DNA of 34,457 nucleotides from positions 1 to 34,457 of IMG/VR virus record IMGVR_UViG_3300037258_000105. The stretch is one strand, 5' to 3'. This document shows, piece by piece, positions 4,527 to 34,269 of the stretch. The notes under the pieces are model-generated. The model had not been told where the DNA came from. It saw only the letters and a program-made list of their open reading frames with translations, and made no database searches. The DNA comes from a virus. Positions within the stretch are counted from its first letter, which is position 1; every line of letters begins with the position of its first letter. The position numbers were made by a program, and so were the translations under genes.

Positions 4527-5215
4527 CCACCGGAGAAGACGAACTGAACCTGGTCGGCGCCGCCGCCCAGACCATCGCAGACATCGAACGATTGGAGAAC
4601 GACGTAATGTCCACTTTTGACAGCGAACCAGACCAGCAGCACCTCGACGACCTCGCCACCGCCGAAGAGGCAGTCATCGAGGAAATCAAGGTCGACGTGT
4701 CCGGCCTCCTGGCCGCGTACACGACCGTGTTGGATGACCTGAAAGGTCAGAGCGCAGCCCAGTCGATGAACTTCGCGAAGGCCGACCAGTTGGCCTCCGA
4801 CCTGACCGCCCTGGAGGCGAGCATCCGGGGGCAGATCCCGGTTCCGCCCGTCGAAACGCCTCCGCCGCCCCCGCCGCCTGCCGCTCTTGACCTGACCGTC
4901 GTGAGCTTGCCGGATGTCACCGACGACGGAACGACCGCGTACACGGCAACGCTGACCGCTTCGGGTGGGGTTGAGCCCTATACGTTCGCGGCGTCCGGGC
5001 TGCCGTCAGGGCTCGCCGTGTCGGGCGACACGATCAGCGGTGTGACCTCCGATCCGGTCGGGACGGTTGAGGTTGGGTTGGCGGTCACGGATTCCGCTAC
5101 CCCCACAGCGGGCACCGTGTCGATCACAGTGCCCCTCAACGTTGTTGCCCCCGCCGCACCCCCCGAGGCCCCTGCAGCGCCCACAGAGCCCGCACCGGAG
5201 ACGCCAGCCGCGTAA
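4523..5215 (+). CDS. Coiled-coil protein with C-terminal He_PIG-like Ig domain
   Basis: GTG 4523 overlaps the holin stop and gives 230 residues; ATG 4608 with GGAG upstream is an alternative giving 202. Order of parts: an acidic helical region with coiled-coil character (~1-105), a Pro-rich linker with a run of about seven prolines, an Ig-like domain with the putative-Ig signature ASGLPSGLAVSGDTISG (~125-205), and a Pro/Ala-rich tail. Such domains bind surfaces or other proteins and occur in phage structural proteins. There is no signal peptide or TM. It is the last gene before a strong terminator, so it may be a late decoration or tail accessory protein; its function is unknown. Confidence 0.65.
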   Translation: MTTGEDELNLVGAAAQTIADIERLENDVMSTFDSEPDQQHLDDLATAEEAVIEEIKVDVSGLLAAYTTVLDDLKGQSAAQSMNFAKADQLASDLTALEASIRGQIPVPPVETPPPPPPPAALDLTVVSLPDVTDDGTTAYTATLTASGGVEPYTFAASGLPSGLAVSGDTISGVTSDPVGTVEVGLAVTDSATPTAGTVSITVPLNVVAPAAPPEAPAAPTEPAPETPAA

Positions 5216-5219
5216 GCTG

Positions 5220-5256
5220 AGGTCGCCGATACGAGGCGCTCTGTCCATTGAGCTAG
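5220..5256 (-). other. tRNA 5'-half-like fragment
   Basis: On the minus strand this reads TAGCTCAATGGACAGAGC, an exact match to the consensus position-8/9 plus D-arm of bacterial tRNAs (stem GCTC/GAGC), followed by an anticodon-arm-like GCC-TCGTATC-GGC. No T-arm or acceptor 3' strand follows within 80 bases, so it is not a complete tRNA. It could be a remnant, an attachment-site core, or chance similarity. Confidence 0.35.
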
Positions 5257-5298
5257 AACCGGCCCCGATCACCCCTCTCCGCTGATCGGGGCCGGTTC
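5256..5298 (+). terminator. Strong hairpin closing the late tail/lysis operon
   Basis: A perfect 15-bp inverted repeat (GAACCGGCCCCGATC and its complement) around a 13-nt loop lies 40 bases after the last lysis-region gene and just before the first early promoter. There is no long T tract, as is common for GC-rich actinophage terminators. It should separate late from early transcription. Confidence 0.75.
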
Positions 5299-5303
5299 GC
5301 GTC

Positions 5304-5354
5304 TAGACCCCCAAGGTAATCCGGGGTACACTGGTGGTGTTCCGACCAAGGAGG
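5304..5354 (+). promoter_or_regulatory. Promoter/operator element and SD block ahead of gam
   Basis: TAGACC (5304-5309), 17-bp spacer, TACACT (5327-5332) form a plausible sigma70-type promoter. The element GTAATCCGGGGTAC (5316-5329) overlaps the -10. CCGACCAAGGAGG (5342-5354) is one base shorter than the start-associated block CCGATCCAAGGAGG used elsewhere in the window. Confidence 0.65.
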
Positions 5355-5359
5355 ACACC

Positions 5360-6154
5360 ATGACCGACCCGATCCCCGCGTGGCTCTACACCGACCCGCC
5401 TCTACCCACCGAGGTCGTCGAGGCGATCGTCGATGGGATGATCGCCGGGCGCGACCCCGTCTATTATGAGGACGAAACCGAGGATCACCCGACGCCGTGG
5501 GCGATCACCGATGACCGGACGGCAGACTGGGCGATGCGCCTCTACGCCCAAGCCGACCGGGATCTGGCCGAGGCCGGCGAGCGGGCGACTGAGTGGCACG
5601 CGCAGATCGACCGGTGGTTGACCGACGCCGGCAGACGCCCCGCCCAGACCATGGCCTTTTTTGGGCATCACCTGGAGGCATACCAGCGGGGCCGCCGGGA
5701 GGCCGACCCGAAAGCGGCGACCCTGCTCCTCCCCTCGGGCTCGGTGCCCAGCCGGAAGCGCGCCGAGCATGTGGCTGTCACGGACAGTGAGGATCTGGTG
5801 TTTTGGGCGTGGGCGAACCATCGGCCCGACCTGTTGAAGATGGAGCCCCGGTTGGCCAGCGTGCGGGAATCGGCGCAGATCGAGGACCGGGTCGACCATT
5901 GGTGGTTCGCTCTGTCCTGCGGGTGTGAGGACACCATGGTCCCCCCTGTCGCGGGGGCGAGCCCAGCGTCGATCGTCGGTGCACCAGCCGTTTGTGCTGG
6001 TCACGGCTCGGTCAACATCACGATTGAGGAGGCGCGGGCTGTTCAGGTCCGGGCGGCTGTCGACAAGAAGTCGGGTGAGGTGATCCCCGGCACCGAGGTC
6101 GTGGATGAGGGGTTCACGGTCGGGCCGCCCAAGCCGACCGGGTCTGTCCGATGA
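5360..6154 (+). CDS. Gam-like host nuclease inhibitor
   Basis: 264 residues; ATG 5360 lies 5 bases after AAGGAGG. The central region (~60-165) matches phage Mu Gam-type proteins: a long helix (LYAQADRDLAEAGERATEW), a second helix ending MAFFGHHLEAYQ, then RREADPKAATLLLPSG and a short beta pair before RPDLLKM. Gam-like proteins bind double-stranded DNA ends and block host exonucleases such as RecBCD/AdnAB. The C-terminal ~90 residues, with CGCEDT and a His/Cys pair, are not part of the usual family. It sits directly before an ERF annealing protein, forming a recombination and end-protection pair. It is probably an early gene. Confidence 0.75.
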   Translation: MTDPIPAWLYTDPPLPTEVVEAIVDGMIAGRDPVYYEDETEDHPTPWAITDDRTADWAMRLYAQADRDLAEAGERATEWHAQIDRWLTDAGRRPAQTMAFFGHHLEAYQRGRREADPKAATLLLPSGSVPSRKRAEHVAVTDSEDLVFWAWANHRPDLLKMEPRLASVRESAQIEDRVDHWWFALSCGCEDTMVPPVAGASPASIVGAPAVCAGHGSVNITIEEARAVQVRAAVDKKSGEVIPGTEVVDEGFTVGPPKPTGSVR

Positions 6155-6393
6155 GGATCACGATCGAGCCGACGGACACGATCGTCACCCTCGTCGCCGG
6201 GGTAGGCGACACGGGCGTCGAAGCCAGAATCTGGTCGGGTGTCACGGACAGTGGCGACAAGGTTCATGTGTTCGTGACCCGGGTCGCGGTGCCGTTGGAT
6301 GTCGACCAGTCCAGGTTCGCGGAGGCCCTGCAGGAATGCCGGAAGCCTGAGGCGATCGGCTCGGAGACGTGGCCGACGCGCCTGCTCTTGTAG
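6151..6393 (+). CDS. Small protein of unknown function
   Basis: 80 residues, ATGA overlap with gam, so probably translated with it. The sequence suggests a small beta-sheet domain (RITIEPTDTIVTLVAG, DKVHVFVTRVAV) and a short C-terminal helix with one Cys. I do not recognise the family. It is a genuine gene by overlap and codon pattern. Confidence 0.6.
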   Translation: MRITIEPTDTIVTLVAGVGDTGVEARIWSGVTDSGDKVHVFVTRVAVPLDVDQSRFAEALQECRKPEAIGSETWPTRLLL

Positions 6394-6401
6394 GCTGAGG
6401 T

Positions 6402-6449
6402 CTGACGGAAAGTTCCGCCCAGCGATGGGCGTTGCCTTGGAACCGTCAG
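6402..6449 (+). other. Nested stem-loop after the gam operon
   Basis: CTGACGG (6402-6408) pairs with CCGTCAG (6443-6449). Inside, TTCC (6413-6416) pairs with GGAA (6439-6442), and GCCCA-GCGA-TGGGC (6417-6430) forms an inner hairpin. Small bulges separate the helices. It lies in the 221-bp gap between two operons, so it could be a terminator, a small structured RNA, or a processing site. Confidence 0.5.
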
Positions 6450-6510
6450 CGGACTGGAGGGCGTCGGGCTGCTCGAGGGATCAGCTCGGCGCCCTTCACC
6501 GCGCACCGAC

Positions 6511-6608
6511 GTAATATGGGGTACACTGGTGGGTAGCCGGTGAGGTCGGGGGGTTCCCTAAGTCGAAGCGAACCGATCCGCCGGCCACCAATAGCCGATC
6601 CAAGGAGG
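6511..6608 (+). promoter_or_regulatory. Promoter/operator element with long leader and SD block ahead of erf
   Basis: GTAATATGGGGTAC (6511-6524) overlaps TACACT (6522-6527). No good -35 is seen at 17 bp; TTCACC is 21 bp upstream. The start-associated block CCGATCCAAGGAGG is at 6595-6608. The ~80-base leader between them is unusually long compared with the other copies. Confidence 0.6.
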
Positions 6609-6614
6609 CTCAAA

Positions 6615-7649
6615 ATGGCCAAGACCCAAACGCCGCCCGTCATTCCTGACCATTACCCGGAAGAGGAGATGGAGAAGGCACGCCAGGCGCTCCTGGCAGG
6701 CGTGAGCATCGATACCGTCCGCGGACGTCTACTCCCGGCCGCCCTGCGCGAGTCTGCCGCGCCGGCGGACACCGGGCCACGGAACGTGATCGAAGCCCTC
6801 GCCCGGGTCGAGCGGGAGTTGCCCGGCATCGGGAAAGACCAGTCGGCGTCCGAACAGCAGGGCGGCTACAAGTACCGGGGGATCGAGGCGATCACCGCCC
6901 AAGCGTCCGTCCTGCTCGGCAAATACGGGGTGGTGTTCGTCCCGAAGATCCTGTCCGCCGAACCTCACGATCTCGTCGTGAACGGGAAACCGTGGGTCGA
7001 GTGGCGGGTCATGGTGTCCTACACCGTGTACGGCCCTGGCGGCCCGCTCGACCATGTTGAGGTCGGCCCGATGTTCGGCCTGGGGCGTGACAATTCGGAC
7101 AAGGGGGTGAACAAGGCGCTCACCCAGACGTTCAAGTACGCGTTGCTGCAGGTGTTGTGCATCGGGGATAAGGCGGATGAGGCGGACGGGCAGACCCCGG
7201 AAACGGACCGGTGGGGTGGCGAGCCGCCTGTCCCGCCTGCGCCGACACCGGAGGAGAAGGCCAGGGCGGACGGGTGGGGGTCGCTGGCCGAGGCGTTGGA
7301 GGCTCGCGACAAGCTGCCGCACATCTTCGACGACCTCGAGAACGTCGAAGCCGGCCGCTGTCTGGAGGCGTTGCGGACCTGGCGGGACGCTGAGGGGATC
7401 TTCTGGCCATACTCGAAGGCGAACTACCAGCGGATCGTCGACGAAGCCCTGGTGTTGATGGAGAACTCAGGGCCGGACGGCTCAGATGGCTCCCCGCCGC
7501 CCCCACAAGCCCCTCAGACGCCCGCAACGGACCCGAAGGTGGCGAAGGCGCAGGCGGAGCTCGCCGAGGCGATAGACCGCCGGAAACGGGAAGACGCCTC
7601 ACCCACCGGCCAACTCCCCGTCACCGACCCCGACGAAGATCCGTTCTAG
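6615..7649 (+). CDS. ERF-family single-strand annealing protein
   Basis: The frame opens upstream, but ATG 6615 is chosen because CCGATCCAAGGAGG ends 6 bases before it; 344 residues. Residues ~55-180 match the ERF superfamily: NVIEALARVERELPGIGK, YKYRGIEAITAQASVLLGKYGVVF, GLGRDNSDKGVNKALTQTFKYALLQVLCI. These proteins form rings on ssDNA and anneal complementary strands in phage recombination and replication. The C-terminal half is acidic and Pro-rich, with a helical module (~210-290) and a D-rich tail (DPDEDPF) like the C-terminal tips that contact SSB or recombinase partners. Gam immediately upstream completes a recombination module; no dedicated exonuclease is adjacent. Confidence 0.85.
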   Translation: MAKTQTPPVIPDHYPEEEMEKARQALLAGVSIDTVRGRLLPAALRESAAPADTGPRNVIEALARVERELPGIGKDQSASEQQGGYKYRGIEAITAQASVLLGKYGVVFVPKILSAEPHDLVVNGKPWVEWRVMVSYTVYGPGGPLDHVEVGPMFGLGRDNSDKGVNKALTQTFKYALLQVLCIGDKADEADGQTPETDRWGGEPPVPPAPTPEEKARADGWGSLAEALEARDKLPHIFDDLENVEAGRCLEALRTWRDAEGIFWPYSKANYQRIVDEALVLMENSGPDGSDGSPPPPQAPQTPATDPKVAKAQAELAEAIDRRKREDASPTGQLPVTDPDEDPF

Positions 7650-7662
7650 CTGGCGGTTGTTG

Positions 7663-7752
7663 CGCGGGCGCCCCGCGAGGCGTACCGTGCCGATCCACAA
7701 CCGAAGATGGGACGTGAAAGGGGCTCCTGCGCTCAGCCGCCCAGGAGCCCCT
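7663..7752 (+). terminator. Two tandem hairpins after erf
   Basis: CGCGGG-CGC-CCCGCG (7663-7677) is followed by a perfect 11-bp stem AGGGGCTCCTG/CAGGAGCCCCT (7719-7729 and 7742-7752, 12-nt loop). The second is the stronger terminator. There is no T run. Both lie in the 141-bp gap before the replication operon. No promoter element of the recurrent type is seen here, so downstream genes may depend on read-through. Confidence 0.65.
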
Positions 7753-7790
7753 AGATCGCCACCACCTGTTACCGGCAGGAGGTGCAACCA

Positions 7791-8006
7791 ATGCCAGACC
7801 TTACCCGCTCAGCGGGCTCTCGTAACGTCACAATCGCGAGACGCCGCCGATGGATCAAGGGAGCCATGGAAGCCGTCGAGAACGGCCAAGCCGATGGCTA
7901 CCGTGAATGGCTCGCTACGTCCGGGGAGGACAGCTGGACAGCGTGGCCCGGCTTCGAGGTTCTCCTCGGCGGACCGCTCCCAGCCCACCCAGACGACGCA
8001 GCATGA
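7791..8006 (+). CDS. Small basic/acidic protein of unknown function, first gene of the replication operon
   Basis: 71 residues; ATG 7791 has AGGAGG 8 bases upstream. A basic N-terminal stretch (ARRRRWIKG) suggests nucleic-acid contact; the rest carries several Trp residues and a short Pro-rich end. The stop overlaps the next start (ATGA). I do not recognise the family. Confidence 0.6.
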   Translation: MPDLTRSAGSRNVTIARRRRWIKGAMEAVENGQADGYREWLATSGEDSWTAWPGFEVLLGGPLPAHPDDAA

Positions 8007-8737
8007 TCGTCCGTGTCGAACACAAGACCAGCTACACCGTCATCGACAACACCGCCATCAACGACGACCGACTCTCATTCCGGGCCGTCGGCCTGCTCGC
8101 CTACCTGCTCAGCAGACCAGACGGATGGCACGTCGACTACCGCTCACTGTCGACCACACACAGTGACGGCGAGTCGTCGACTAGGGCGGCCCTGAAAGAG
8201 CTCGAAGAGGCCGGCTACCTGGAACGGAGGCGAGGCCGCGGCGACGACGGAAGGGTCCGATGGGAGCAGATCGTCCACGAGACCTCATCGACACCATGCG
8301 GCGGAAACCATGCGGCGGAAATCCAGGCATGGAAACCCGCCGCAGTAGTAAGTACTGAGAAGCAAGTACTAGAACAAATACCCACGCGTTCGGCTACGCC
8401 GAAGCCTGAACGCGAGAAGGATCTCATCTTCGACGCGATCATTGAGGTCTGTGGCATACCGCCTCGGGAAGCAACCAACGGCACAGCCGCGCGCGTAGGT
8501 AAGACCAAACGCGAGATCGTCGCGTTCGCGCGCGACGCCGGTTTACCGACCGACCCCGCCGAGCTCGCCAAAGGCATCCGAACCAGATCACGCCGTTACC
8601 GGGTCAAGATGCCAGGCTGTGAGCTGACCCCCGAGGCGCTGGCCAAGTGGTGGTCGACGCTCGGGCCATCGGCCGGCGTCGAGAGTTCCGGTTCATTGTT
8701 CGAGGATCTCCGTAGGATGAGCGAGGTGGCCCAGTGA
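8003..8737 (+). CDS. Replication initiator-like winged-helix protein
   Basis: ATG 8003 overlaps the upstream stop; 244 residues. Residues ~15-80 match the N-terminal winged helix common in phage replisome organisers: IDNTAINDDRLSFRAVGLLAYLLSRPDGW, then a recognition-helix region and ALKELEEAGYLERRRGRG. The rest has a basic linker and a helical C-terminal domain. It is followed directly by a DnaB/RepA-type ATPase, as expected for an origin-binding and helicase-loading pair. The internal stretch at about 8280-8390 is richer in A/T and direct repeats (GCGGCGGAAACCATGCGG-like, AAGTACT) than its surroundings and might hold origin iterons. Confidence 0.7.
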   Translation: MIVRVEHKTSYTVIDNTAINDDRLSFRAVGLLAYLLSRPDGWHVDYRSLSTTHSDGESSTRAALKELEEAGYLERRRGRGDDGRVRWEQIVHETSSTPCGGNHAAEIQAWKPAAVVSTEKQVLEQIPTRSATPKPEREKDLIFDAIIEVCGIPPREATNGTAARVGKTKREIVAFARDAGLPTDPAELAKGIRTRSRRYRVKMPGCELTPEALAKWWSTLGPSAGVESSGSLFEDLRRMSEVAQ

Positions 8738-9996
8738 CCCGCGTTATCCCGCACTCCATCGAGGCTGAGCGCACTGTCCTCGGCTGTGCCATGTGGTCCG
8801 GGGATGCCTGCTCGCTGGTAGCCGAGTTCATCGACCCGTCCGATTTCTACCGCCCGATCCACCAGTCGATCGCCTCCGCCATTGTCGAGCTCCACGGGTC
8901 CGGCCAGCCTGTCGACGCAGGCACCGTGGCCGAGCGTCTCCGGGCGCTCGGGCTGCTGGAGCACTGCGGAGGGCTCAGCGAGTTGACATCCCTCGTGGCT
9001 GAGGCAGGTCCGACCGGTTCGGTCACGACCCTCATAGGGCTGATCGCCGAGTACGCCGTTCGCCGCCGCCTGTTGGCCGCCATGGCCGACCTCGATGCAG
9101 CCGCATACGATCTGGCCGTCCCGGTGGAAACCCTGGCCGAGCGGCTCCTAGCCGTCGAGCAGGAGTTCGCGTGCCCGACCAGAACCACCCATTCCGACCA
9201 GACAGCCCCCGACTTCGTGGCCGGCGACCACGACTATGACTGGCTGGTCAGCGGCCTAATCGAGCGTGGCGACCGCTTCATTTTCACTGGGGCCGAGGGC
9301 TATGGGAAGTCGACGCTGCTCCGCCAACTTGCGGTGCAGTTCGCTGCAGGCGTCCACCCATGGACAGCGGAGTACATCCCACCGATCTCAGTGCTGATGA
9401 TCGACCTGGAGAACTCCGCCGCCCAGACCGCCCGCAAACTGCGGGGGCTGCTCACCGAAGCGCAACGTCTCCGCCAGCTGAGTTTCGGTCATCCCGATGT
9501 CGGGTCGGTCGACAATCTCCGGATCAACGTTCACCCGCAGGGACTTGACCTGCTCACATCGAGGGATCGTTCCTGGTTGACGGACCGGCTCCGGGCGAAC
9601 AGACCCGTCGATCTGCTGGTCATCAGCCCGCTCTACAAGCTCCACGCCGGATCGCCGACCGACGAGGAACCAGCCGCTCAGGTAGCACGGTTTCTTGACC
9701 TGCTCCGCGAGCGGTACGGCTGCGCGCTGATGATCGAAGCGCACTCCCCGCACGCCGACGACGGGCGAGGCAGGACCGTCAGACCTTACGGGGCGAGCCT
9801 CTGGATGCGCTGGCCCGAGTTCGGCTACGGACTACGGCCAACGAAGGACGATCCGCTGGTCAGCGACCTAGTGGCATGGCGCGGACCTCGCGACGGCGCC
9901 CGAGATTGGCCGTTCACTCTGCGCCGTGGGTCTCACTGGCCGTGGGAAGCGGCGAACAGTAGGAAGGCCGCCGGACCGGAGCTCGAACAGTGGTGA
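8734..9996 (+). CDS. DnaB N-terminal domain fused to RepA-like AAA_25 ATPase
   Basis: GTG start in a GTGA overlap; 420 residues. Residues 1-~145 match the DnaB helicase N-terminal domain (IPHSIEAERTVLGCAMW, FYRPIHQSIASAIVELHGSG, DAGTVAERLR). Residues ~165-400 form a RecA-like ATPase with Walker A GAEGYGKST (186-194), Walker B-like SVLMIDLEN, and VDLLVISPLYKL followed by MIEAHSPH, the pattern of RepA/AAA_25 helicases. It probably unwinds phage DNA at the origin with the upstream initiator. The DnaB-N plus RepA fusion occurs in actinophages but differs from canonical DnaB, in which the C-terminal domain is DnaB_C. Confidence 0.8.
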   Translation: MTRVIPHSIEAERTVLGCAMWSGDACSLVAEFIDPSDFYRPIHQSIASAIVELHGSGQPVDAGTVAERLRALGLLEHCGGLSELTSLVAEAGPTGSVTTLIGLIAEYAVRRRLLAAMADLDAAAYDLAVPVETLAERLLAVEQEFACPTRTTHSDQTAPDFVAGDHDYDWLVSGLIERGDRFIFTGAEGYGKSTLLRQLAVQFAAGVHPWTAEYIPPISVLMIDLENSAAQTARKLRGLLTEAQRLRQLSFGHPDVGSVDNLRINVHPQGLDLLTSRDRSWLTDRLRANRPVDLLVISPLYKLHAGSPTDEEPAAQVARFLDLLRERYGCALMIEAHSPHADDGRGRTVRPYGASLWMRWPEFGYGLRPTKDDPLVSDLVAWRGPRDGARDWPFTLRRGSHWPWEAANSRKAAGPELEQW

Positions 9997-10274
9997 GCCG
10001 TCTGACCAGCCGCCTACCGTCCCGCCGTCAGATAGCCGAAGACCGCTACACCGCCCTGGTCCGCGCCCTGATCATCGAGGCTGGGGGGGAGGTGCGTATC
10101 CCGCCGGGGGCGATGGAGGTTGCGGGGGTCGTGACCTCCGAACCGTCCGGCGACGGCGGCCTGATATTCCGCGTCTCATGCCAGGAAGGACACCTACCCG
10201 ATTCGCCGGCGGCCGGTCGGGACATTTTCTGCCGCCGGTGTCACGGGCTGCTCGTCGAGGGGAACGGCCGGTGA
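9993..10274 (+). CDS. Small zinc-binding-like protein
   Basis: GTG 9993 overlaps the previous stop (GTGA); GTG 9990 is an alternative. 93 residues: a basic N-terminus, a helix, a short beta section and a C-terminal Cys/His cluster (SCQEGHL and CRRCHG) that could bind one zinc. It overlaps the methyltransferase start by 4 bases. Function unknown. Confidence 0.6.
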   Translation: MSRLTSRLPSRRQIAEDRYTALVRALIIEAGGEVRIPPGAMEVAGVVTSEPSGDGGLIFRVSCQEGHLPDSPAAGRDIFCRRCHGLLVEGNGR

Positions 10275-11302
10275 AACCCACCTTCGGCTCGCTGTTCTCC
10301 GGTATCGGCGGCATCGACCTCGGCCTCGAGCGGGCCGGCTGGTCGTGCGCCTGGCAGAGCGAGATCGACCCGTACGCCTCCCGCGTCCTCACCCACCACT
10401 GGCCGCAGGTCCCGAACCTCGGCGACATCAAAACCATCGATTGGAGCGGCGTTGACCAGGTTGATCTCATCTGCGGCGGATACCCCTGCCAACCCTTCTC
10501 GATGGCTGGGCGGCGAGCCGGAACCGATGACCCCCGACATCTCTGGCCGTGGATGCGAGACGCCATTCGCGTACTACGACCCCGATGGGCGCTCCTTGAG
10601 AACGTCCCAGGGCACCTTGGACTTGGGTTTGCCGAAGTCCTCGCTGATCTTGCCGCCCTCGGGTTCGATGCGGAATGGGAACTGCTACCAGCGGCCGCCT
10701 TTGGTGCCCCGCACCTCCGTTACCGGCTCTTCGTTGTTGCACACGCCGACGGCCAAAGCGAACCAGGACGCCCCGTCGATGCGTTCACGAGACCGGGGTT
10801 CATGGTTCCCGATCCCTGCCGCGGCCAGCTACGGGACGAACCAGTCTCCGTCTTCGGGTGCCAGCGTCCGCCCTGGGCTGGAGACGATGGCGAGACACGG
10901 CTTATGGCCCACGCCGACGACACAGGACGCGGAGAACGACGGGGGACCCAGCCAACTCCGCCGCAATTCGGTGCCGCTCAATACGGCGGTGAAGATGTGG
11001 CCGACGCCGACTCAGAGCGACGGGACTGGAGGCCCGGGGTGTTCGGGGAGGGACGGCGGCCTGAATCTGCGGACCGCGGTCCAATGGGCGACGCCGATTG
11101 CTCATCCGAGAACTCACACGCCGAGACAGGTCGACCATGGAGCACAACTGGCGAACCAGGTTGGTGGGCAGCTGAACCCGACGTGGGTCGAGTGGCTCAT
11201 GGGGTTCCCGCCCGGGTGGACCGACTTAGGTGCCTCGGGAATGCCGTAGTACCCCAGGTGGCCGAGTGGGTGGGTAGACGGATCCTGGAGGCGGTCGGAT
11301 GA
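10271..11302 (+). CDS. C5 cytosine DNA methyltransferase (Dcm-like)
   Basis: GTG 10271 in a GTGA overlap; 343 residues. The longer open frame upstream is a shadow of the ATPase gene. Motif I FGSLFSGIGGIDLGLERAG, motif IV PCQPFS with catalytic Cys73, motif VI ENV (110-112), motif VIII RYRLFVVA and motif X LGNAVVPQVAEWVG are all present, so the enzyme looks intact. It methylates cytosine C5 in a target that cannot be predicted, probably to evade host restriction. The target-recognition region carries four repeats of the (A/G)(H/D)AD type. The same DNA read in the +1 frame encodes TP(T/I) repeats of another recognisable phage protein type. An HNH nuclease gene overlaps its end. Confidence 0.9.
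   Translation: MKPTFGSLFSGIGGIDLGLERAGWSCAWQSEIDPYASRVLTHHWPQVPNLGDIKTIDWSGVDQVDLICGGYPCQPFSMAGRRAGTDDPRHLWPWMRDAIRVLRPRWALLENVPGHLGLGFAEVLADLAALGFDAEWELLPAAAFGAPHLRYRLFVVAHADGQSEPGRPVDAFTRPGFMVPDPCRGQLRDEPVSVFGCQRPPWAGDDGETRLMAHADDTGRGERRGTQPTPPQFGAAQYGGEDVADADSERRDWRPGVFGEGRRPESADRGPMGDADCSSENSHAETGRPWSTTGEPGWWAAEPDVGRVAHGVPARVDRLRCLGNAVVPQVAEWVGRRILEAVG
10527..11249 (+). CDS. Possible overprinted gene inside the methyltransferase (TPT-repeat protein)
   Basis: This is a 240-residue open frame, +1 relative to the methyltransferase. It starts MTPDISGRG and contains FAYYDPDGRSLRTSQGTL, PPLVPRTSVTGSSLLHTPTA, LWPTPTTQD, MWPTPTQSDG and LNPTWVEWLMGFPPGWTDL. These segments resemble, from memory, phage proteins annotated separately or as methyltransferase C-termini. 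By eye, third-position G/C in 10740-10930 is at least as high in this frame as in the methyltransferase frame. No convincing SD precedes ATG 10527, so expression is uncertain. It may be a true overlapping gene, or one of two readings of a shared DNA repeat. Function unknown. Confidence 0.4.
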   Translation: MTPDISGRGCETPFAYYDPDGRSLRTSQGTLDLGLPKSSLILPPSGSMRNGNCYQRPPLVPRTSVTGSSLLHTPTAKANQDAPSMRSRDRGSWFPIPAAASYGTNQSPSSGASVRPGLETMARHGLWPTPTTQDAENDGGPSQLRRNSVPLNTAVKMWPTPTQSDGTGGPGCSGRDGGLNLRTAVQWATPIAHPRTHTPRQVDHGAQLANQVGGQLNPTWVEWLMGFPPGWTDLGASGMP

Positions 11303-11583
11303 AGCGCGGCGGCAGACTCCGGCGCCACACGCCCCTGCGCGCCAAGCCCCACCACGCGGCCAGGGCGGTCACCTCGTTGACCTGCGAGGCTCAGACCCCG
11401 GTCTGCACCTCCTGGGCGGTCCACGTCCACCACGTGCTCCCCAGGGCTCACGGCGGCAACGACCACACCCCGCTACTGGATGTCTGCGCGCCGTGCCATG
11501 AGTACATCCACGGTCACCCGGCGCTCAGCTACGAACGCGGCTGGTTGCTCCACTCTTGGGATGATCCTTCCCCCGCTGCGTAA
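11299..11583 (+). CDS. HNH endonuclease (short)
   Basis: 94 residues, ATGA overlap with the methyltransferase. A basic N-terminus is followed by the HNH core: VHVHHVLPRAHGGNDH with His44/His45 and Asn54, then CAPCHEYIH with His67 and a Cys pair. The small freestanding form resembles phage HNH proteins that assist DNA packaging or act as homing nucleases. Location next to a methyltransferase rather than the terminase suggests an early DNA-processing role, but this is inference. Confidence 0.75.
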   Translation: MKRGGRLRRHTPLRAKPHHAARAVTSLTCEAQTPVCTSWAVHVHHVLPRAHGGNDHTPLLDVCAPCHEYIHGHPALSYERGWLLHSWDDPSPAA

Positions 11584-11630
11584 TCTGGGGTACAGTAGCG
11601 GCTGTTACCGCCAAGGCCGATCCAAGGAGG
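11568..11630 (+). promoter_or_regulatory. Promoter/operator element and SD block
   Basis: TTCCCC (11568-11573), 17-bp spacer, TACAGT (11591-11596), with GTAATCTGGGGTAC at 11580-11593 and CCGATCCAAGGAGG at 11617-11630, 7 bases before the ATG at 11638. The -35 lies inside the end of the HNH gene. Confidence 0.65.
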
Positions 11631-11637
11631 CCCACCC

Positions 11638-11931
11638 ATGCCCGTCATAAATGTCCACATCGTCCGAGGCGACACGCCCGCCCCATGGATGGGCATCGAC
11701 GACCCCATCCACCTCCCGCACGCCGTGATCGCTGTGGCCGCCCTCGAGTCGGGCATGGTGTCGGGCGCCGCGAGCATCGCTATCCGCATCGACCTCCCCG
11801 ACGGTCAGGTGGTGATCGCAGAGACATCGCTGGCCGCGTGGATCGCCGCTACCTGTGCCATCCGCGGCGCATTCCCCGCCGAGTTCTATGACACGCCGCT
11901 GGCCAGCCCGTTGCTGGACGACGAGTTCTGA
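11638..11931 (+). CDS. Protein of unknown function under its own promoter element
   Basis: 97 residues, preceded by the full promoter and SD module. The sequence is hydrophobic/acidic with a regular beta-alpha pattern (VINVHIVRGD, AVIAVAALESG, AIRIDLPDGQVVIAETSLAAWIAATCAI) and no TM. I do not recognise the family. It heads a run of four or five overlapping small genes. Confidence 0.65.
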   Translation: MPVINVHIVRGDTPAPWMGIDDPIHLPHAVIAVAALESGMVSGAASIAIRIDLPDGQVVIAETSLAAWIAATCAIRGAFPAEFYDTPLASPLLDDEF

Positions 11932-12134
11932 TGACCGTCCTGGTCGTCGGGTGTGTCATAGCGTTCATCGTCGGCTTGAACCTGCTGCTCAGCCTCCAGT
12001 TCTGGTTGGGGTACCGGCAGGTTCGTAGGCAGGAACGGGAGTTGGTGCCGGCGCGGGCCACCCAGTTCGGGCCACGCCAGGGCCGCCATTTTCGTCCGGA
12101 GCCGATCGACGTGTACGAATCGGTGGCGTCGTGA
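11931..12134 (+). CDS. Small single-TM protein
   Basis: 67 residues, start overlapping the previous stop (TGATG). One TM segment at residues ~3-24 (VVGCVIAFIVGLNLLLSLQFWL), then a basic cytoplasmic tail. Paired with another single-TM protein immediately downstream. Function unknown; possible superinfection or membrane accessory protein. Confidence 0.6.
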   Translation: MTVLVVGCVIAFIVGLNLLLSLQFWLGYRQVRRQERELVPARATQFGPRQGRHFRPEPIDVYESVAS

Positions 12135-12325
12135 TCCCCGTGCATGTAGCGGTGACCTTGGTGGCCATCGTGATCGGCGGGGCCGTCTTGGCGTTCATCG
12201 CGCTCGGCCTGGTCGACCTGTACGGGTTGGATGTTCCTGCTGATCTGAGGCCGCTGGTGAGGGTGGCTAGGGCGAAACGGAAGCATTCGCGGCGGACCCT
12301 CAAGCGGCTGGCTGCCCGCGGCTGA
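12131..12325 (+). CDS. Small single-TM protein with basic tail
   Basis: 64 residues, GTG start in a GTGA overlap. One TM segment at residues ~5-30, then an Arg/Lys-rich C-terminus (ARAKRKHSRRTLKRLAARG) expected to lie on the cytoplasmic side. It forms a tandem pair with the preceding membrane protein. Function unknown. Confidence 0.6.
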   Translation: MIPVHVAVTLVAIVIGGAVLAFIALGLVDLYGLDVPADLRPLVRVARAKRKHSRRTLKRLAARG

Positions 12326-12786
12326 TGGGCGTACTCCTGTGGGGATCCGATTTCAGGACCACGCCCGACTCTCGCACCAAGGCCCGCAAGGACACCGACA
12401 GGGCGCTCGTGGAGAAGGTCTGGCAAGCGTCGGTCGTTGAGCGTGGCAGGGAGCTCGGTTGGACTCTGATCTACCATCACCGCCCGGCGTGGGTGGGTGA
12501 TCGGGGCAACAAGAGGATGATCACGAATACGCTGCCCGAGGGCGCCGGATTCCCGGATCTGATCTTCGTCGGCCACGCGGTCGCGATCGCGATGGAGTTG
12601 AAACGGGAGTCGAACAAGCCGACCCCGGCGCAGGAGGCATGGCTGGAGGCGTGGGCTGAGGTGCCCGGCACGATCGCCGTGTACGCCCGCCCGAGGGACC
12701 GGGAGCTTGTCTGGGATGTCCTCGCCAGGCCGTGGGCGTACTTGCTGAACCAACCGTCAACAGAGGAGGAACCGTGTCCCCACTAG
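12325..12786 (+). CDS. VRR-NUC domain nuclease
   Basis: 153 residues, TGATG overlap. The C-terminal two thirds matches VRR-NUC nucleases of the PD-(D/E)XK fold: EGAGFPDLIFVG with Asp78, IAMELKRESNKPTPAQEAWL with Glu91 and Lys93, then a beta strand and a final helix. Phage members of this type act on branched or structured DNA such as Holliday junctions. It may resolve recombination or replication intermediates made by the ERF/Gam system or prepare concatemers for packaging. Confidence 0.8.
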   Translation: MGVLLWGSDFRTTPDSRTKARKDTDRALVEKVWQASVVERGRELGWTLIYHHRPAWVGDRGNKRMITNTLPEGAGFPDLIFVGHAVAIAMELKRESNKPTPAQEAWLEAWAEVPGTIAVYARPRDRELVWDVLARPWAYLLNQPSTEEEPCPH

Positions 12787-13298
12787 AGCTCGCAGCGTTC
12801 GAGGACGACGATGTCCGGGAGGTGGCCGTCAAGATCACCCGCGCGGGCGACGGGCTGAGCGAAGCCCTGAAGGTATCGCCAGTCGCGCTGCACCGCGGGG
12901 ACGAGGTGTTCTATGTGCTGCGCGGCCGGGTAGCGAAGATCACGTTCGAGGAGGTCAAACCCGGTTCGGACGATCTGCGCCGGGTGCACGTGATCGTCAC
13001 CCAGGACATCGTCGAGGTCGACGGGGCTGACGTGTCGGCGATCCTGAAGCACGCGCAGGACGTGATCCGCCGGAAACTGGAGGAGGCGTCCGGCCAGGTT
13101 CCCCTCACCGACCCGTCAGGTGTGACCCCGTTCGAGGATCTGACTGACGCTGAGCAGGCGCTCTACATCGCCCACGGCTCGGGTGGGCATGCTGGCGGGC
13201 CGGTTGAGGGGTGCCCGCGGTGTGTGGCCCCACCGGTTCGTGAGCCGACGAAACGTGCGCCTGGCCGGCCTCGAGGCTCGAAGTCCGCAGCGAAGTGA
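12774..13298 (+). CDS. Unknown protein with AT-hook-like C-terminus
   Basis: GTG 12774 is chosen because AGAGGAGG lies just upstream; the product is 174 residues and overlaps the nuclease by 13 bases. Residues 1-~105 form a predicted beta-rich domain (EVAVKITRAGDG, HRGDEVFYVLRGRVAKITFEEV, RVHVIVTQDIVEVDGAD) followed by a charged helix. Near the C-terminus there is a Cys/His group (GGHAGGPVEGCPRCVAP) and an AT-hook-like KRAPGRPRGSK. Minor-groove DNA binding is plausible. Function unknown. Confidence 0.65.
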   Translation: MSPLELAAFEDDDVREVAVKITRAGDGLSEALKVSPVALHRGDEVFYVLRGRVAKITFEEVKPGSDDLRRVHVIVTQDIVEVDGADVSAILKHAQDVIRRKLEEASGQVPLTDPSGVTPFEDLTDAEQALYIAHGSGGHAGGPVEGCPRCVAPPVREPTKRAPGRPRGSKSAAK

Positions 13299-13507
13299 GC
13301 AGTCCTGAGGCGGTTGACATTCTCGCTGAGTTGGATCGGACAGCGGAGAACATCGCCCGTATGGACGGCTCGCTGGACCGGTTGTATGCGGTGCGGTTGG
13401 TGTTGATGCGGCAGGCGAGGGCGGCTGGGGTGTCGCGGGATGAGGTTGCGGTGCATGCTCGGATCGCGGGGCCTCGGGTGTCGCAACTGTTGAAGGGCGA
13501 CGGCTGA
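13295..13507 (+). CDS. Small HTH DNA-binding protein
   Basis: 70 residues, GTG start in a GTGA overlap. An N-terminal helix is followed by a helix-turn-helix (MRQARAAGVSRDEVAVHARIAGPRVSQLLKGDG) of the Xre/sigma-like type. It is a possible regulator of the recurrent promoter elements. No effector domain is present. Confidence 0.6.
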   Translation: MSSPEAVDILAELDRTAENIARMDGSLDRLYAVRLVLMRQARAAGVSRDEVAVHARIAGPRVSQLLKGDG

Positions 13508-13770
13508 TGGTGGCGCTGACGATCTACGACGAGATTCATGCCGAGCGGTGGCGCGCTCACGCCAAACATGGGGCCACGTCGATGGAATCCTTCCCCGTGG
13601 ACGACCTGAACCGGCTGGCGATCCTGACGGAAGAGGTCGGCGAGGTCGCCAAGGAATTCAACGAGGCCCGTCATGAGGCCCGCCCGGTCGATCTGCTCCA
13701 GTTGCGTACCGAACTGATCCAGGTTGCTGCGATGGCCGCCGCTTGGGCTGACGCCTGGTCGCTCATCTGA
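13507..13770 (+). CDS. MazG-like nucleotide pyrophosphohydrolase
   Basis: 87 residues starting at the ATG that overlaps the upstream stop. It carries the MazG-like signature: LTEEVGEVAKEFNEA with Glu42, Glu43, Glu46 and Glu50, and a second helix with RTELIQVAAMAAAW (Glu69), metal-binding acidic residues in a four-helix arrangement. Family members hydrolyse (d)NTPs to monophosphates and may lower ppGpp or non-canonical nucleotides during infection. It is the last + strand gene before a bidirectional terminator. Confidence 0.75.
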   Translation: MVALTIYDEIHAERWRAHAKHGATSMESFPVDDLNRLAILTEEVGEVAKEFNEARHEARPVDLLQLRTELIQVAAMAAAWADAWSLI

Positions 13771-13774
13771 TCGT

Positions 13775-13808
13775 CCCGGCGCGGCCACCCGTCTATGGCC
13801 GCGCCGGG
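13775..13808 (+). terminator. Bidirectional terminator between convergent genes
   Basis: A perfect 13-bp stem (CCCGGCGCGGCCA and TGGCCGCGCCGGG) with an 8-nt loop lies between the end of the + strand MazG-like gene and the end of a minus-strand HNH gene. By symmetry it can serve both strands. Confidence 0.8.
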
Positions 13809-13833
13809 CGAAACTCAACAGCCGTCGTACGGG

Positions 13834-14379
13834 TCAGCGACGGGCCGGGGAACGGTAGAGCCGGTTCGCCGTGGTGCACGTCTCGCACCTGCAACCCCGG
13901 ACATACCCGCCCCGAGTGCCGTGGGTGGTGACGCTCCGGGTACGGGGGCGCTCGCGCTCGCAGTCCCGGCATCGACGGATCATTTGGCCGTTGTACTCGT
14001 ACTCACGGGTGTTGGCCGGTGTGCGCAGATGACCATGGCCGCAGGTCGGTCCAGCTGTGAACCCGTCGAACCGTCCTCGCTCGATTGCGTCGGCCGTGTT
14101 TTGCTTGCCGTCTCCCTCGTAGACGTGCTCCATACCGATCCTGCAGCATGGGGGGTTGTCGCAGCCATGCAGCGCCCATCCGGTCAGTTCTCGTCCGAGG
14201 TCAAGTGCCAGCGCCAGTCGGTTGGCTTTGAACGTGAGCGTGCGCCCGTTGCGCCACACGCCGAACTTGCCGTAGCCGCTGGCGTCGGTGCCTGCCGTCC
14301 ATAGCCAGCATCCGTCGCCAGTCGAATCGATTTTGGTCCTGAACCGTTCTACGTCCCTGTCCGCTAGTCCATAGACCAT
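13834..14379 (-). CDS. HNH endonuclease (homing-type)
   Basis: ATG at 14379 (minus) gives 181 residues; GTG two codons earlier is an alternative. Residues ~10-95 match the HNH_3 type: CWLWTAGTDASGYGKF, KANRLALALDLG, LHGCDNPPCCRIGMEHVYEGDGKQNTADAIERGR, with the His/Asn metal-finger core. A second Cys/His cluster (CGHGHL, CRDCERERP, CRCETC) forms one or two zinc fingers that could direct DNA binding. It is likely a selfish nuclease. It lies downstream of a secreted Rpf-like gene on the same strand, within an island running against the surrounding + strand genes. Confidence 0.8.
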   Translation of the reverse strand: MVYGLADRDVERFRTKIDSTGDGCWLWTAGTDASGYGKFGVWRNGRTLTFKANRLALALDLGRELTGWALHGCDNPPCCRIGMEHVYEGDGKQNTADAIERGRFDGFTAGPTCGHGHLRTPANTREYEYNGQMIRRCRDCERERPRTRSVTTHGTRGGYVRGCRCETCTTANRLYRSPARR

Positions 14380-14404
14380 GGACACTCAGTCTAGCCGACG
14401 GCTG

Positions 14405-14905
14405 CTAACAATGGTCATAGGGGAGCCAAGGCGTGTACGAATCAGCGACGACGACAGACACGAAGACCATGTCCTGCTCGCCGGGGGACGCGGCACCGTA
14501 GTCGGATTGGCCTCCGTAGGCGCCCCAGAGTTCCGCGGACAGCTGGTACCGCCCGTAGTGGCCGGACGGGTTCCACGCCTCGTAGTCGCCGCCTGATTCG
14601 CGGGTGACGATGCACGTCTCGGTCGGGTTGCGGGGGGTCATGTCGCCGGGGTAGCCGCGACGTGCCGCTCGGCACGCGCCGATCTGGTAGGGCGAGCCGA
14701 CACAGTGGGCGTCGTCGCGCTGCGGGGTCCCATCTTCCACGTACCCGCCGCTGTTGATGGGGTGTCCGTTGATCCAGGTGGCGACTGGTTGGCCGTTGTA
14801 GCGGTCTGGGGGGCCGTGGTAGGCCGCGCGGGTAGGACTGGTGCCGGTGAGGGCGAGGATGGCAGCGAACGCCACGTGGGCGCCCGCCGAGAGAACGGCT
14901 CGCAT
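14405..14905 (-). CDS. Secreted Rpf/transglycosylase-like protein
   Basis: 166 residues on the minus strand; ATG 14905 has AAGGAG a few bases upstream. Residues 1-~28 form a Sec-type signal peptide (basic start, hydrophobic core, small residues before the likely cleavage near TRAA). The mature region has TCIVTRESGGDYEAWNPSG then HYGRYQLSAELWGAYGG, the pattern of Rpf and lysozyme-like transglycosylase domains with catalytic Glu103. Four cysteines may form disulfides. It would act outside the membrane on peptidoglycan without a holin. It is flanked by two HNH genes on the same strand, so it may be a moron expressed independently of the lytic operons. Confidence 0.7.
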   Translation of the reverse strand: MRAVLSAGAHVAFAAILALTGTSPTRAAYHGPPDRYNGQPVATWINGHPINSGGYVEDGTPQRDDAHCVGSPYQIGACRAARRGYPGDMTPRNPTETCIVTRESGGDYEAWNPSGHYGRYQLSAELWGAYGGQSDYGAASPGEQDMVFVSVVVADSYTPWLPYDHC

Positions 14906-14991
14906 GCTGCTCCTTCCGTCTCGCCCGCCGGAGTTGGCAGACGCAGGGCGTGGTGGTCAGGTGCGAGCGCCGCTGCTGGCTGCATGGGCGC

Positions 14992-15489
14992 TCAGATGTT
15001 GGCCAAGGGCGCTCCTGAAAGATTGGGACGAGCGAACTCTCCCCATTGCTCGACGGCGGCTCGGTCGTATGCCGCAGCGGCGTCTATTTCATCGGCGAAG
15101 TAGCCGATGTGGTGTTTGACACCCTCGTACTTGATAGCGGCGCGCCAGAGACCCCGGCTCGTGTACCAGTAGACGCCCTTGTACCGGGATGACCGACCGA
15201 CCTGAGGCTTCTGGTTGGCCAGATTGAGCGTTCGGGAGGCGCCCCGGAGGTTCGACCGCTGGTTGTTCAGCCCGTCACCATCGATGTGGTCGACCTCCAT
15301 GCCAGACTCGACCTTCAAGATCAGACGGTGCATGAACTCCACGCCTGAGCCCTGGTTGGAGACGGCATAGAGCGGCCCCTTGCCGCGGTGTAGCCGCCAT
15401 CGCCTCAATGTGAGAGAAGGGAAGTCTTCGTCGTCCACCAGGACACTTAGACCGCCCGCGGCTTCACCAACCAGGCTGATCCGCTGCAT
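14992..15489 (-). CDS. HNH-AP2 homing endonuclease
   Basis: 165 residues on the minus strand, ATG at 15489. Residues ~50-90 contain the HNH core (FMHRLIL, VDHIDGDGLNNQRSNLR), followed by SRYKGVYWYTSRGLWRAAI and a beta-beta-beta-helix AP2 DNA-binding domain (YFADEIDAAAAYDRAAVEQWG). This combination is typical of mobile freestanding homing endonucleases. It diverges from the + strand promoter at 15503-15531, which may overlap its own promoter. Confidence 0.85.
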   Translation of the reverse strand: MQRISLVGEAAGGLSVLVDDEDFPSLTLRRWRLHRGKGPLYAVSNQGSGVEFMHRLILKVESGMEVDHIDGDGLNNQRSNLRGASRTLNLANQKPQVGRSSRYKGVYWYTSRGLWRAAIKYEGVKHHIGYFADEIDAAAAYDRAAVEQWGEFARPNLSGAPLANI

Positions 15490-15502
15490 CCTCGTAGTTT
15501 AC

Positions 15503-15554
15503 TTGCCCCGATAGGTAACCCGTGTTACACTGAGGGAGACCCGATCCAAGGAGG
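15503..15554 (+). promoter_or_regulatory. Promoter/operator element and SD block in a divergent region
   Basis: TTGCCC (15503-15508), 17-bp spacer, TACACT (15526-15531). GTAACCCGTGTTAC (15515-15528) is an inverted repeat with 5-bp arms. CCGATCCAAGGAGG occupies 15541-15554. Its symmetry and position between divergent genes would allow a regulator to affect both directions. Confidence 0.7.
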
Positions 15555-15559
15555 TCGAG

Positions 15560-15769
15560 ATGCAGATGACCATCACTCCGTGTTCCTGGGCTGAACCTCA
15601 CGAGCCTCACACCAATCCCGGCGCGCTCAGAAGCCGGTGTCTTGGTGTGGCTACGGAGTTTCCGAACGAGCACACCCATTCAGCAGTCTGCGCTACGCGT
15701 CGACTCACGGACGGGGTCATGCGCGTGTCGTTCTTGTGTGTCTGTGAACGCCGCCCGGCGAATCAATAA
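15560..15769 (+). CDS. Small Cys/His-containing protein
   Basis: 69 residues; ATG 15560 is 5 bases after the CCGATCCAAGGAGG block. Several Cys and His residues (PCSWAEPHEPH, RCLG, AVCATRR, LCVCERR) suggest a metal-binding fold. Family not recognised. First gene of the operon that resumes after the minus-strand island. Confidence 0.6.
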   Translation: MQMTITPCSWAEPHEPHTNPGALRSRCLGVATEFPNEHTHSAVCATRRLTDGVMRVSFLCVCERRPANQ

Positions 15770-15789
15770 TCGTGGGTACCGTGGGGTCC

Positions 15790-15993
15790 ATGACTTACCG
15801 TCGTGAGGCGGAGCTGCGTCGGGCGAAGGCTGAGGCGATCGCCGCCGCCCTGCGTCAGGCACGCGCTGATGCTCAGATCGCGGCGACGTTCACCCCGAGG
15901 GAACGCCGGTTGGCGGCGAAGGTTGCTGGTCAGCGACCGCCGAGCGAGCAGACGTGGGCTGAGGTCGTCGAACTGTTACGCCAGCCCGCGTAG
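15790..15993 (+). CDS. Small charged helical protein
   Basis: 67 residues from ATG 15790; GTG 15772 would add six residues. It is highly helical and Ala/Arg-rich (EAELRRAKAEAIAAALRQARADAQ), with a C-terminal segment EQTWAEVVELLRQPA. SD is weak. Possible DNA-binding or scaffold-like small protein; function unknown. Confidence 0.5.
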   Translation: MTYRREAELRRAKAEAIAAALRQARADAQIAATFTPRERRLAAKVAGQRPPSEQTWAEVVELLRQPA

Positions 15994-16002
15994 CCTGAGC
16001 CC

Positions 16003-16173
16003 ATGAATCTCACCGTCAGCGCGTTGACCGTCAGCAAGTATCCGCGTGGTGGTGGTCCGCGCACGGCGAAGCAGGTTCGGGTGAGACGGCTGGAGAAGGC
16101 GAAGGCGCGGCCGGCGCGGGTGCAGGCGCAGGAACCCCCGCCGATCAACTGGTCGCTCCTCGCCCGCAGTTGA
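16003..16173 (+). CDS. Very small basic protein
   Basis: 56 residues from ATG 16003, starting MNLTVSALTVSKYPRGGGPR and followed by a strongly basic helix (TAKQVRVRRLEKAKARPARV) and NWSLLARS at the end. It lies 9 bases after the previous gene. Its stop overlaps the -35 of the next promoter element. SD is weak. Real gene likely by position and G/C-rich third positions. Confidence 0.5.
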   Translation: MNLTVSALTVSKYPRGGGPRTAKQVRVRRLEKAKARPARVQAQEPPPINWSLLARS

Positions 16174-16224
16174 CCCCTAAGGTAACCAGGGGTACAGTCG
16201 ATGGTGTAGTCCGATCCAAGGAGG
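16170..16224 (+). promoter_or_regulatory. Promoter/operator element and SD block
   Basis: This is the best-formed copy: TTGACC (16170-16175), 17-bp spacer, TACAGT (16193-16198). GTAACCAGGGGTAC is at 16182-16195, CCGATCCAAGGAGG at 16211-16224, and the ATG follows at 16230. Confidence 0.7.
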
Positions 16225-16229
16225 ACAAC

Positions 16230-16571
16230 ATGCACACCCACGAAACCTATGAGAAGGGCATCGCCCGCGCCCTACTCGACCAGCACCTCAACACCCAAGC
16301 AACCGACACCGCCGTCAACGCCTTCCACTGGAGCGTGGTTCACGGGATGCCGGTCGAACGGTTCGAGCAGATCACCCCCGCCTTCATCGACGGCTGGCTC
16401 GCCGCCTATAGGTGGGGCAGAAACCCCGCTTCACCAGCTGGTGTCGCGATCACGGTCGATACCGAGTTGGCGCAGGAGGTCGCGATCCGGCATGCCGAAC
16501 GGGCACGCGAGGCGTTCTACACGTTGGACATCGCCCGCCGCCGTGAGGCCGACTGGGAGAAGACCCTGTGA
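16230..16571 (+). CDS. Helical protein of unknown function
   Basis: 113 residues; ATG 16230 is 5 bases after the SD block. Alpha-helical throughout, with a His-rich start (MHTHETYEKG) and conserved-looking FHWSVVHGMPVERFEQITPAFIDGWLAAYRWG. No membrane segments. Heads a coupled group of small genes leading to the small terminase. Family not recognised. Confidence 0.65.
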   Translation: MHTHETYEKGIARALLDQHLNTQATDTAVNAFHWSVVHGMPVERFEQITPAFIDGWLAAYRWGRNPASPAGVAITVDTELAQEVAIRHAERAREAFYTLDIARRREADWEKTL

Positions 16572-17001: not shown

Positions 17002-17030
17002 GCAGCCAGGAAGGTCCGGTGACTGAGTGA
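16998..17030 (+). CDS. Ten-residue mini-ORF bridging two genes
   Basis: ATG 16998 overlaps the previous stop (ATGA), encodes MSSQEGPVTE, and its stop overlaps the next GTG (GTGA at 17027). It could carry ribosomes across the 25-base gap for coupled re-initiation. It may have no function as a peptide. Confidence 0.3.
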   Translation: MSSQEGPVTE

Positions 17031-17230: not shown

Positions 17231-17252
17231 CCATGCATGTACGGTTTCAAAC

Positions 17253-18257: not shown

Positions 18258-18263
18258 CTGTAT

Positions 18264-18303
18264 ACAACAACGCTGATGTGGTGTACAGTAACGGACTGTC
18301 GAA
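18264..18303 (+). promoter_or_regulatory. Divergent variant of the promoter element
   Basis: TGTGGTGTACAGT (18277-18289) resembles the recurrent element, with TACAGT as -10 (18284-18289). A palindromic GTATAC lies about 20 bases upstream, and ACAGT-AACGG-ACTGT forms a small inverted repeat overlapping the -10. The start-associated block is absent; the SD is AAAGGA. Confidence 0.45.
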
Positions 18304-18314
18304 AGGATCCCCCG

Positions 18315-28740: not shown

Positions 28741-28770
28741 GTAACCTTGGTTACAGCCGATCCAAGGAGG
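28741..28770 (+). promoter_or_regulatory. Symmetric operator element fused to the SD block
   Basis: GTAACC-TT-GGTTAC (28741-28754) has perfect 6-bp arms and directly abuts CCGATCCAAGGAGG (28757-28770). A -10-like TACAGC overlaps the right arm; no -35 is evident. This most symmetric copy lies inside the head operon, just after the MuF stop. Confidence 0.65.
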
Positions 28771-34176: not shown

Positions 34177-34215
34177 GGGTATCCTGTTCACAGGGGATTC
34201 AGCATGCGCTTCGGG

Positions 34216-34243
34216 CCGCCCGGGTCCTTCGGGATCCGGGCGG
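34216..34243 (+). terminator. UUCG-tetraloop terminator after the capsid gene
   Basis: A 12-bp stem (CCGCCCGGGTCC and GGATCCGGGCGG, one G-U pair) is closed by TTCG, a very stable tetraloop, about 40 bases after the capsid stop. No long T run follows. It should stop most transcription or protect the capsid mRNA 3' end. Confidence 0.8.
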
Positions 34244-34252
34244 TTGCGCGTA

Positions 34253-34269
34253 GTAACATGGCGTACACC
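34253..34269 (+). promoter_or_regulatory. Variant of the recurrent promoter/operator element
   Basis: GTAACATGGCGTAC (34253-34266) followed by CC gives a -10-like TACACC. No clear -35, and the CCGATCC block is absent; the SD is GAAAGG. It restarts transcription after the capsid terminator. Confidence 0.5.

Follow-up and report, generated by a model that had tools for sequence, protein, structure and literature searches.

The record analysed here, of a bacterial virus from a metagenome (the window, 34,457 bases, 66% GC), contains a genome-wide control cassette of the SAS/ESAS kind, written in other letters. It is fairly probable that this cassette is a family of SigA-type promoters with a dyad operator for one regulator and a hairpin start block (Table 1). 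In the proposed mechanism, one family of host SigA-type promoters would start several separate transcripts, and a dyad DNA site (TAAC-N4-GTTA type) would overlie the spacer together with the opening bases of the -10. This could let a single dimeric regulator, probably a phage protein, hold all the promoters back or release them jointly, and the putative operator, GTAACCNNGGTTAC, is a candidate target for phage DNA-binding proteins. Most transcripts would then run into a constant start block, CCGATCCAAGGAGG, in which CC at one end and GG at the other may pair and, extended by covarying neighbours, may form a small hairpin with AAGGA in the loop, which would set or gate the translation of the same genes.

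The gene order of the window runs from tail and lysis genes through gam, erf, replication genes and small early genes to a capsid gene near the end. Since the tail and lysis genes stand at the start and the sequence ends just past the capsid gene, the window is probably a fragment without part of the structural genes. The gene behind site 1 (5360) is gam-like and belongs to the Mu Gam family, and the gene behind site 2 (6615) is erf, of the ERF family. The capsid protein has 47% identity to the capsid proteins of Arthrobacter phages Sonali and Mufasa8, relatives of this protein (MCP) were not found in bacterial genomes, and there is no near DNA relative for the first 25 kb among phage records. 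In addition, the portal protein ORF (24287-27940, 1217 aa) contains a LAGLIDADG-type intein insertion and a C-terminal NUDIX domain, and gene 18315 contains a repetitive GCGGATGCGGCTGGGGCT tract (18748-18880) encoding an Ala/Asp/Gly-rich run. On the minus strand, the intergenic stretch 5220-5262 reads like the 5′ half of a tRNA (GGTTCTAGCTCAATGGACAGAGC) and the intergenic stretch 24229-24270 like a T-arm/3′ half (GGAGGTTCGACTCCTGC); a whole tRNA was found at neither place by ARAGORN or Rfam, and both stretches are possibly att or tRNA remnants.

Table 1. Promoter-like elements, start blocks and neighbouring hairpins of the window
Feature	Position	Strand	Description
GC-rich long hairpin, terminator-like	5256..5298	+	adjoins site 1 upstream; fold 5225-5305: -44.2 kcal/mol, z -5.7
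Site 1	5304..5332	+	TAGACC, 17-nt spacer, TACACT; GTAATCCGGGGTAC at 5316-5329; precedes gam-like 5360
Start block, near copy	5342..5354	+	CCGACCAAGGAGG, one T missing; 5 nt before ATG 5360; stem GTTC/GGAC, 10-nt loop
GC-rich hairpin, terminator-like	6455..6497	+	upstream of site 2; fold 6394-6508: -61.8 kcal/mol, z -3.6
Site 2	6511..6527	+	GTAATATGGGGTACACT, without -35; precedes erf gene 6615
Start block CCGATCCAAGGAGG	6595..6608	+	6 nt before ATG 6615; stem AGCC/GGCT
Site 3	11568..11596	+	TTCCCC-17-TACAGT; GTAATCTGGGGTAC at 11580-11593
Start block	11617..11630	+	7 nt before ATG 11638; stem GGCC/GGCC
Site 4	15503..15531	+	TTGCCC-17-TACACT; GTAACCCGTGTTAC at 15515-15528; between divergent genes 15489(-) and 15560(+)
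Start block	15541..15554	+	5 nt before ATG 15560; stem GACC/GGTC after one-base shift
Weak ninth element	15766..15782	+	ATAATCGTGGGTACCGT; -10 end 7 nt before leaderless-type ATG 15790
Site 5	16170..16198	+	TTGACC-17-TACAGT; GTAACCAGGGGTAC at 16182-16195
Start block	16211..16224	+	5 nt before ATG 16230; stem GTCC/GGAC
Degenerate site	18273..18289	+	CTGATGTGGTGTACAGT; precedes gene 18315; without start block
Site 6	28741..28757	+	perfect GTAACCTTGGTTAC, TACAGC, without -35; in structural region, upstream of GTG 28781
Start block	28757..28770	+	abuts site 6; 10 nt before GTG 28781; stem AGCC/GGCT
Hairpin, TTCG loop, terminator-like	34214..34245	+	after capsid gene, upstream of site 7; fold 34176-34255: -45.9 kcal/mol, z -4.5
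Site 7	34253..34269	+	GTAACATGGCGTACACC, without -35, without start block; GAAAGG SD; ATG 34292

The pattern GTAAY-N6-TACA-N-Y occurs seven times on the plus strand, never on the minus strand and in none of 40 Markov shuffles. All seven element positions given in an earlier note on this DNA (5316, 6511, 11580, 15515, 16182, 28741 and 34253) are exact plus-strand matches to GTAAYNNNNNNTACANY, which has none on the minus strand. When it was checked whether the motif is equally frequent inside genes, 115 of the 119 bases of the seven elements proved to be non-coding, against 4.2% of the whole window by our own gene calls; the sole coding overlap is that of the first 4 bases of 11580 with a stop codon. 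The palindrome GTAACC-NN-GGTTAC, also claimed before, is perfect at 28741 only, the other sites keeping 3-5 of 6 symmetric pairs (30 of 42 over all seven), and alternative dyad centres give at most 17 pairs. Column information has its maxima at GTAA and TACA, and most right arms read GGGGTAC, not GGTTAC, the outer TAC belonging to the -10. As for the variant placed near 18277, a trace is present at 18273 which keeps the -10 half only and is weak, and the weak ninth candidate at 15766 is an addition to the earlier note. The combined pattern gave 0 matches in viral contigs. That the palindrome acts as an RNA hairpin was rejected, since its arms are without covariation and it overlaps the -10.

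Moreover, the -35-like hexamers described at 17 nt from TACAST were confirmed at 5304, 11568, 15503 and 16170. Their match to a TTGACA-like -35 is 4/6 for TAGACC, 3/6 for TTCCCC, 4/6 for TTGCCC and 5/6 for TTGACC, the background chance of a match of at least 4/6 being 0.025, and no -35 is present at sites 6511, 28741 and 34253. A generic sigma70-type scan of 5000-19000 found site 5 alone, so the -35 boxes are weak. Judged from these letters, the best reading is that the elements would be host SigA-type promoters (TTGAC-17-TACAST) with a dyad operator over the spacer and the -10. Strong hairpins (z -3.6 to -5.7) lie directly upstream of sites 1, 2 and 7, and therefore new transcripts are probably needed there; because these hairpins are without clear T-tracts, they are termed terminator-like and are not proven terminators. 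Starts of the leaderless type, in which TANNNT precedes the start codon by about 7 nt, occur at 15790, 16003, 17250, 23792 and 24287, and the palindrome is absent from all of them with the exception of 15766/15790. For a SigF/sigma-B type promoter (GTTT-N15-GGGTAC), no GTTT-like -35 at 15-17 nt from GGGTA was seen upstream by inspection, a TTGAC-like one standing at 17 nt instead. Two further readings were rejected because the spacing does not fit: MerR-type activation, for which the spacer must be 19-20 bp, and binding by BldD, whose site reads AC-N5-GT.

The second part of the cassette is the 14-mer CCGATCCAAGGAGG, whose five exact copies and one near copy lie where they had been reported, 5-10 nt before starts and on the plus strand only, with AAGGAGG inside. 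Identity among the copies ends sharply at 14 nt, and promoter and block lie between 0 and about 70 nt apart. None of the first-retrieved relatives carries the 14-mer, and elsewhere it has single-copy matches only, among the matches listed. A point absent from the earlier note is that the 14-mer, which reads CC-GATCCAAGGA-GG, looks like a small RNA hairpin: the flanking bases vary among the copies yet are complementary (AG/CT, GG/CC, GT/AC, AG/CT). Among 720 permutations of the 3′ flanks, 4 pair as well as the real arrangement, the pattern having been noticed post hoc. In the block alignment two pairs are changed on both sides and 91.7% of cells pair; of 500 shuffles, 5 attained the covariation score, which is lower in all shifted registers. 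The stem has no more than 4 bp, the folds around it range from -4.6 to -6.8 kcal/mol (site 1 excepted), and chance 4-bp stems near an SD occur at 47% of background starts. Since the stem is short and the pattern was seen after the fact, the hairpin is given moderate weight. Site 6 poses a problem for it, as a transcript beginning about 7 nt past the -10 would have its first base within the 14-mer and lack the 5′ arm of the hairpin.

The nearest relatives found for the early region, IMGVR_UViG_3300015209_000001 (G001) and IMGVR_UViG_3300032770_000017 (G002), came from a DnaB-like helicase search. G001 shares more early genes beyond the helicase, and G002 has seven early genes in common with the window, mostly at about 50% identity (Gam 36%); the proteins common to the window and its relatives are Gam, ERF, the replication initiator, the helicase, HNH, a VRR-NUC-like protein and a protein with an AT-hook-like tail. 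In G002 the family reads TTGAC-N4-ATCCTAAC-N4-GTTAGGAT, and ATCCTAAC-N4-GTTAGGAT has 13 sites (at most 4 mismatches of 16) against 0.8 expected. Each arm independently has the consensus ATCCTAAC, with no covariation between the arms, the mark of a site bound by a dimeric protein and not of RNA. The right arm forms the -10 (TAGGAT), TTGAC lies 17 nt upstream in several sites, and the starts are often leaderless; site 9884 (TTGACT-CCCATCCTAACCGAGGT-TACCGT) is arranged like the window sites. In G001, CCTAACNGCGC-TANNNT occurs at least 8 times in forward orientation, in two cases with TTGACT at 17-18 nt, and two copies precede its gam and erf, whose window homologues follow sites 1 and 2. The core shared by the elements of the window and the relatives is TAAC at 9-10 nt before the -10. 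That is to say, analogous families stand at corresponding places, so the position is kept and the letters change. The G001 element is hardly palindromic, which keeps alive the simple-promoter explanation weighed below. Two further promoter-like families recur in the helicase-relative viral contigs L256, L259, L262 and L268, namely TTGAC..TGTCACACCC..TGTCANNAT and GCACACTT..CGTGCGTTTAT / CGTTCGTTCTAGT.

It had been suggested that one regulator or sigma preference co-ordinates dispersed gene groups. Co-ordination fits the hairpins before sites 1, 2 and 7 and the analogous family at the relative's homologues, whereas the preference of a host sigma factor by itself is less likely, as the -10-like starts 16003, 17250, 23792 and 24287 are without the element. 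A link of the sites to the RHH (18953) and HTH (13295) proteins, which the earlier note had put forward for binding assays, was not borne out: nothing was found for it, and neither protein has a relative in 50,697 phage records or in G001 and G002. No HTH or RHH protein of the candidate type is common to the window, G001 and G002, a comparison of the window with its relatives yielded no regulator gene in common, and no repressor or integrase was recognised among the window proteins scanned. The protein encoded at 12774-13298 has an AT-hook-like tail (PGRPRGSKSAAK), 49% identity in G002 and no Pfam family; it is possibly a DNA-binding protein common to two phages with related promoter families. 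As an alternative to any dedicated regulator, the element may be only the preferred strong host promoter of the phage (spacer TAAY plus TACAST), its near-symmetry being incidental. We consider this rather unlikely. It agrees with the conserved G001 element, which is non-palindromic yet keeps TAAC 9 nt upstream of the -10, and with the window's outer TAC as part of the -10 and its mostly GGGGTAC right arms. However, TAAC near -22 is not known to be a SigA contact, sites without a -35 still carry the TAAC element, and other -10-like starts of the window do without it; the shared 8-mer of the G002 arms and the 30 pairs at the proposed dyad centre, against at most 17 at other offsets, also argue against it.

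Two other explanations concern the block. That the 14-mer is merely an extended, efficient Shine-Dalgarno site would account for the position of AAGGAGG, 5-10 nt ahead of start codons, but CCGATCC would fall past the point where 16S rRNA ends, its 3′ tail being conserved in actinobacteria, and cannot pair with it. Since other start sites of the window are also without the 14-mer, this explanation appears improbable; the same argument was made for SAS by Pope et al. It is still far less credible that the blocks are recent copies or recombination joints of a mobile or recombinogenic cassette, whose similarity is kept by exchange and not by function. Five identical 14-mers, and the cluster O repeats involved in deletions (PMC4351075), would suit such a cassette, but not the sharp end of identity, the varying promoter-block distance, the flanks that differ yet stay complementary, or the constant placement at starts on one strand.

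In a survey, 10-mers shared by SD-bearing start regions were counted against random SD-like places of the same locus. The 179 loci had been retrieved either through their kinship to window genes or through the 14-mer and are not a random sample. The top ranks were taken by Anaya and AnnaSerena, which are published SAS phages; beside them the window 14-mer was recovered blind (p = 1/201), and 11 other loci were flagged, about nine independent contigs given the near duplicates L051/L056 and L256/L274. The recovery of both published phages together with these loci suggests a phenomenon that is probably widespread among phages whose hosts are high-GC bacteria. The L037 block is CTCTGGAAGGAGC, with TTCCCAC-GTGGGAA upstream, and the L256 block is AGCCCCAAGGAGGCC, with TTGACTCTGTCACACCCATGTGTCATGAT upstream. 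In L037 a stem of GCTC or GCTT with GAGC persists despite loop-length changes, and the hairpin claim is based on this together with the covariation in the window. A general rule by which every start block would be an SD hairpin was rejected, since L154, L246 and L051 cannot pair and chance stems reach the 47% given above; the hairpin is thus not universal among start blocks. A wider proposal, which we regard as doubtful, is that start blocks would be phage-private SD-core hairpins read by a phage-made factor, forming a translation code of each lineage tied to its own promoter operator, in which letters change fast while place and shape stay.

SAS/ESAS have been known since 2011 without a function, and the window adds a hairpin model that can be tested by base changes. 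Also new are a simple survey that recovers both published SAS phages and the two relatives, whose analogous promoter elements differ in sequence and, in one of the relatives, stand at the same two genes. Matched control cassettes with private letters may be widespread in phages, and if the regulator of the proposed promoter family were found, each phage would be a source of an orthogonal operator/RBS pair.

The parallel with SAS/ESAS under different sequences, drawn in the earlier note, is borne out. In cluster K (Anaya, Adephagia, TM4), SAS is likewise a rigid RBS-containing block 3-9 nt before starts on one strand, and ESAS adds to a subset an upstream inverted repeat, a SigA-like promoter with the -10 in its right arm (PMC3203893, PMC11373665). 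The Anaya ESAS, TTGACATGCATACAG-N8-CTGTATGCA, combines a SigA-like promoter and an inverted repeat over the -10, followed by a rigid RBS block (PMC3203893, PMC11373665). The window block is, like SAS, short, asymmetric, repeated, SD-containing, just upstream of starts and in one orientation; the block follows six of the seven elements, and -35 and -10 stand at 17 bp in four. The published SAS blocks GGG-ATAGGAG-CCC and GGG-AAAGGA-CCC have the same outline as the 14-mer, and their outer symmetry was noted by Pope et al. However, the block does not match the SAS consensus GGGATAGGAGCCC, and the element matches neither the geometry nor the sequence of ESAS, whose arms of 15-17 bp are imperfect with a 4-14 bp gap; the window has a tight 14-bp dyad (6-bp arms, 2-bp gap), covarying flanks of the block, two sites in the structural region and fewer copies. 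Microbacterium cluster EF (AnnaSerena) similarly has GGGAAAGGACCCC at the RBS position and a linked upstream element centred on GTAGAG, but the sequences are others and the upstream element shows poor conservation and has not been called a palindrome (PMC7302621). The 18-bp inverted repeats GATCAACCNNGGTTGATC of Microbacterium cluster EG are dispersed start-associated dyads with an AACC-NN-GGTT core as well; they differ in lying 14-22 bp before starts among closely packed genes, an overlap with a -10 was not seen, and a repeated RBS block is absent (PMC7302621). Another close counterpart is the set of gp33 operators of BPs, where one repressor serves several dispersed promoters and an operator lies between the -35 and -10 of PR; these are experimentally proven, consist of two 12-bp half sites CGACATATGTCG and have no start block (PMC4557955).
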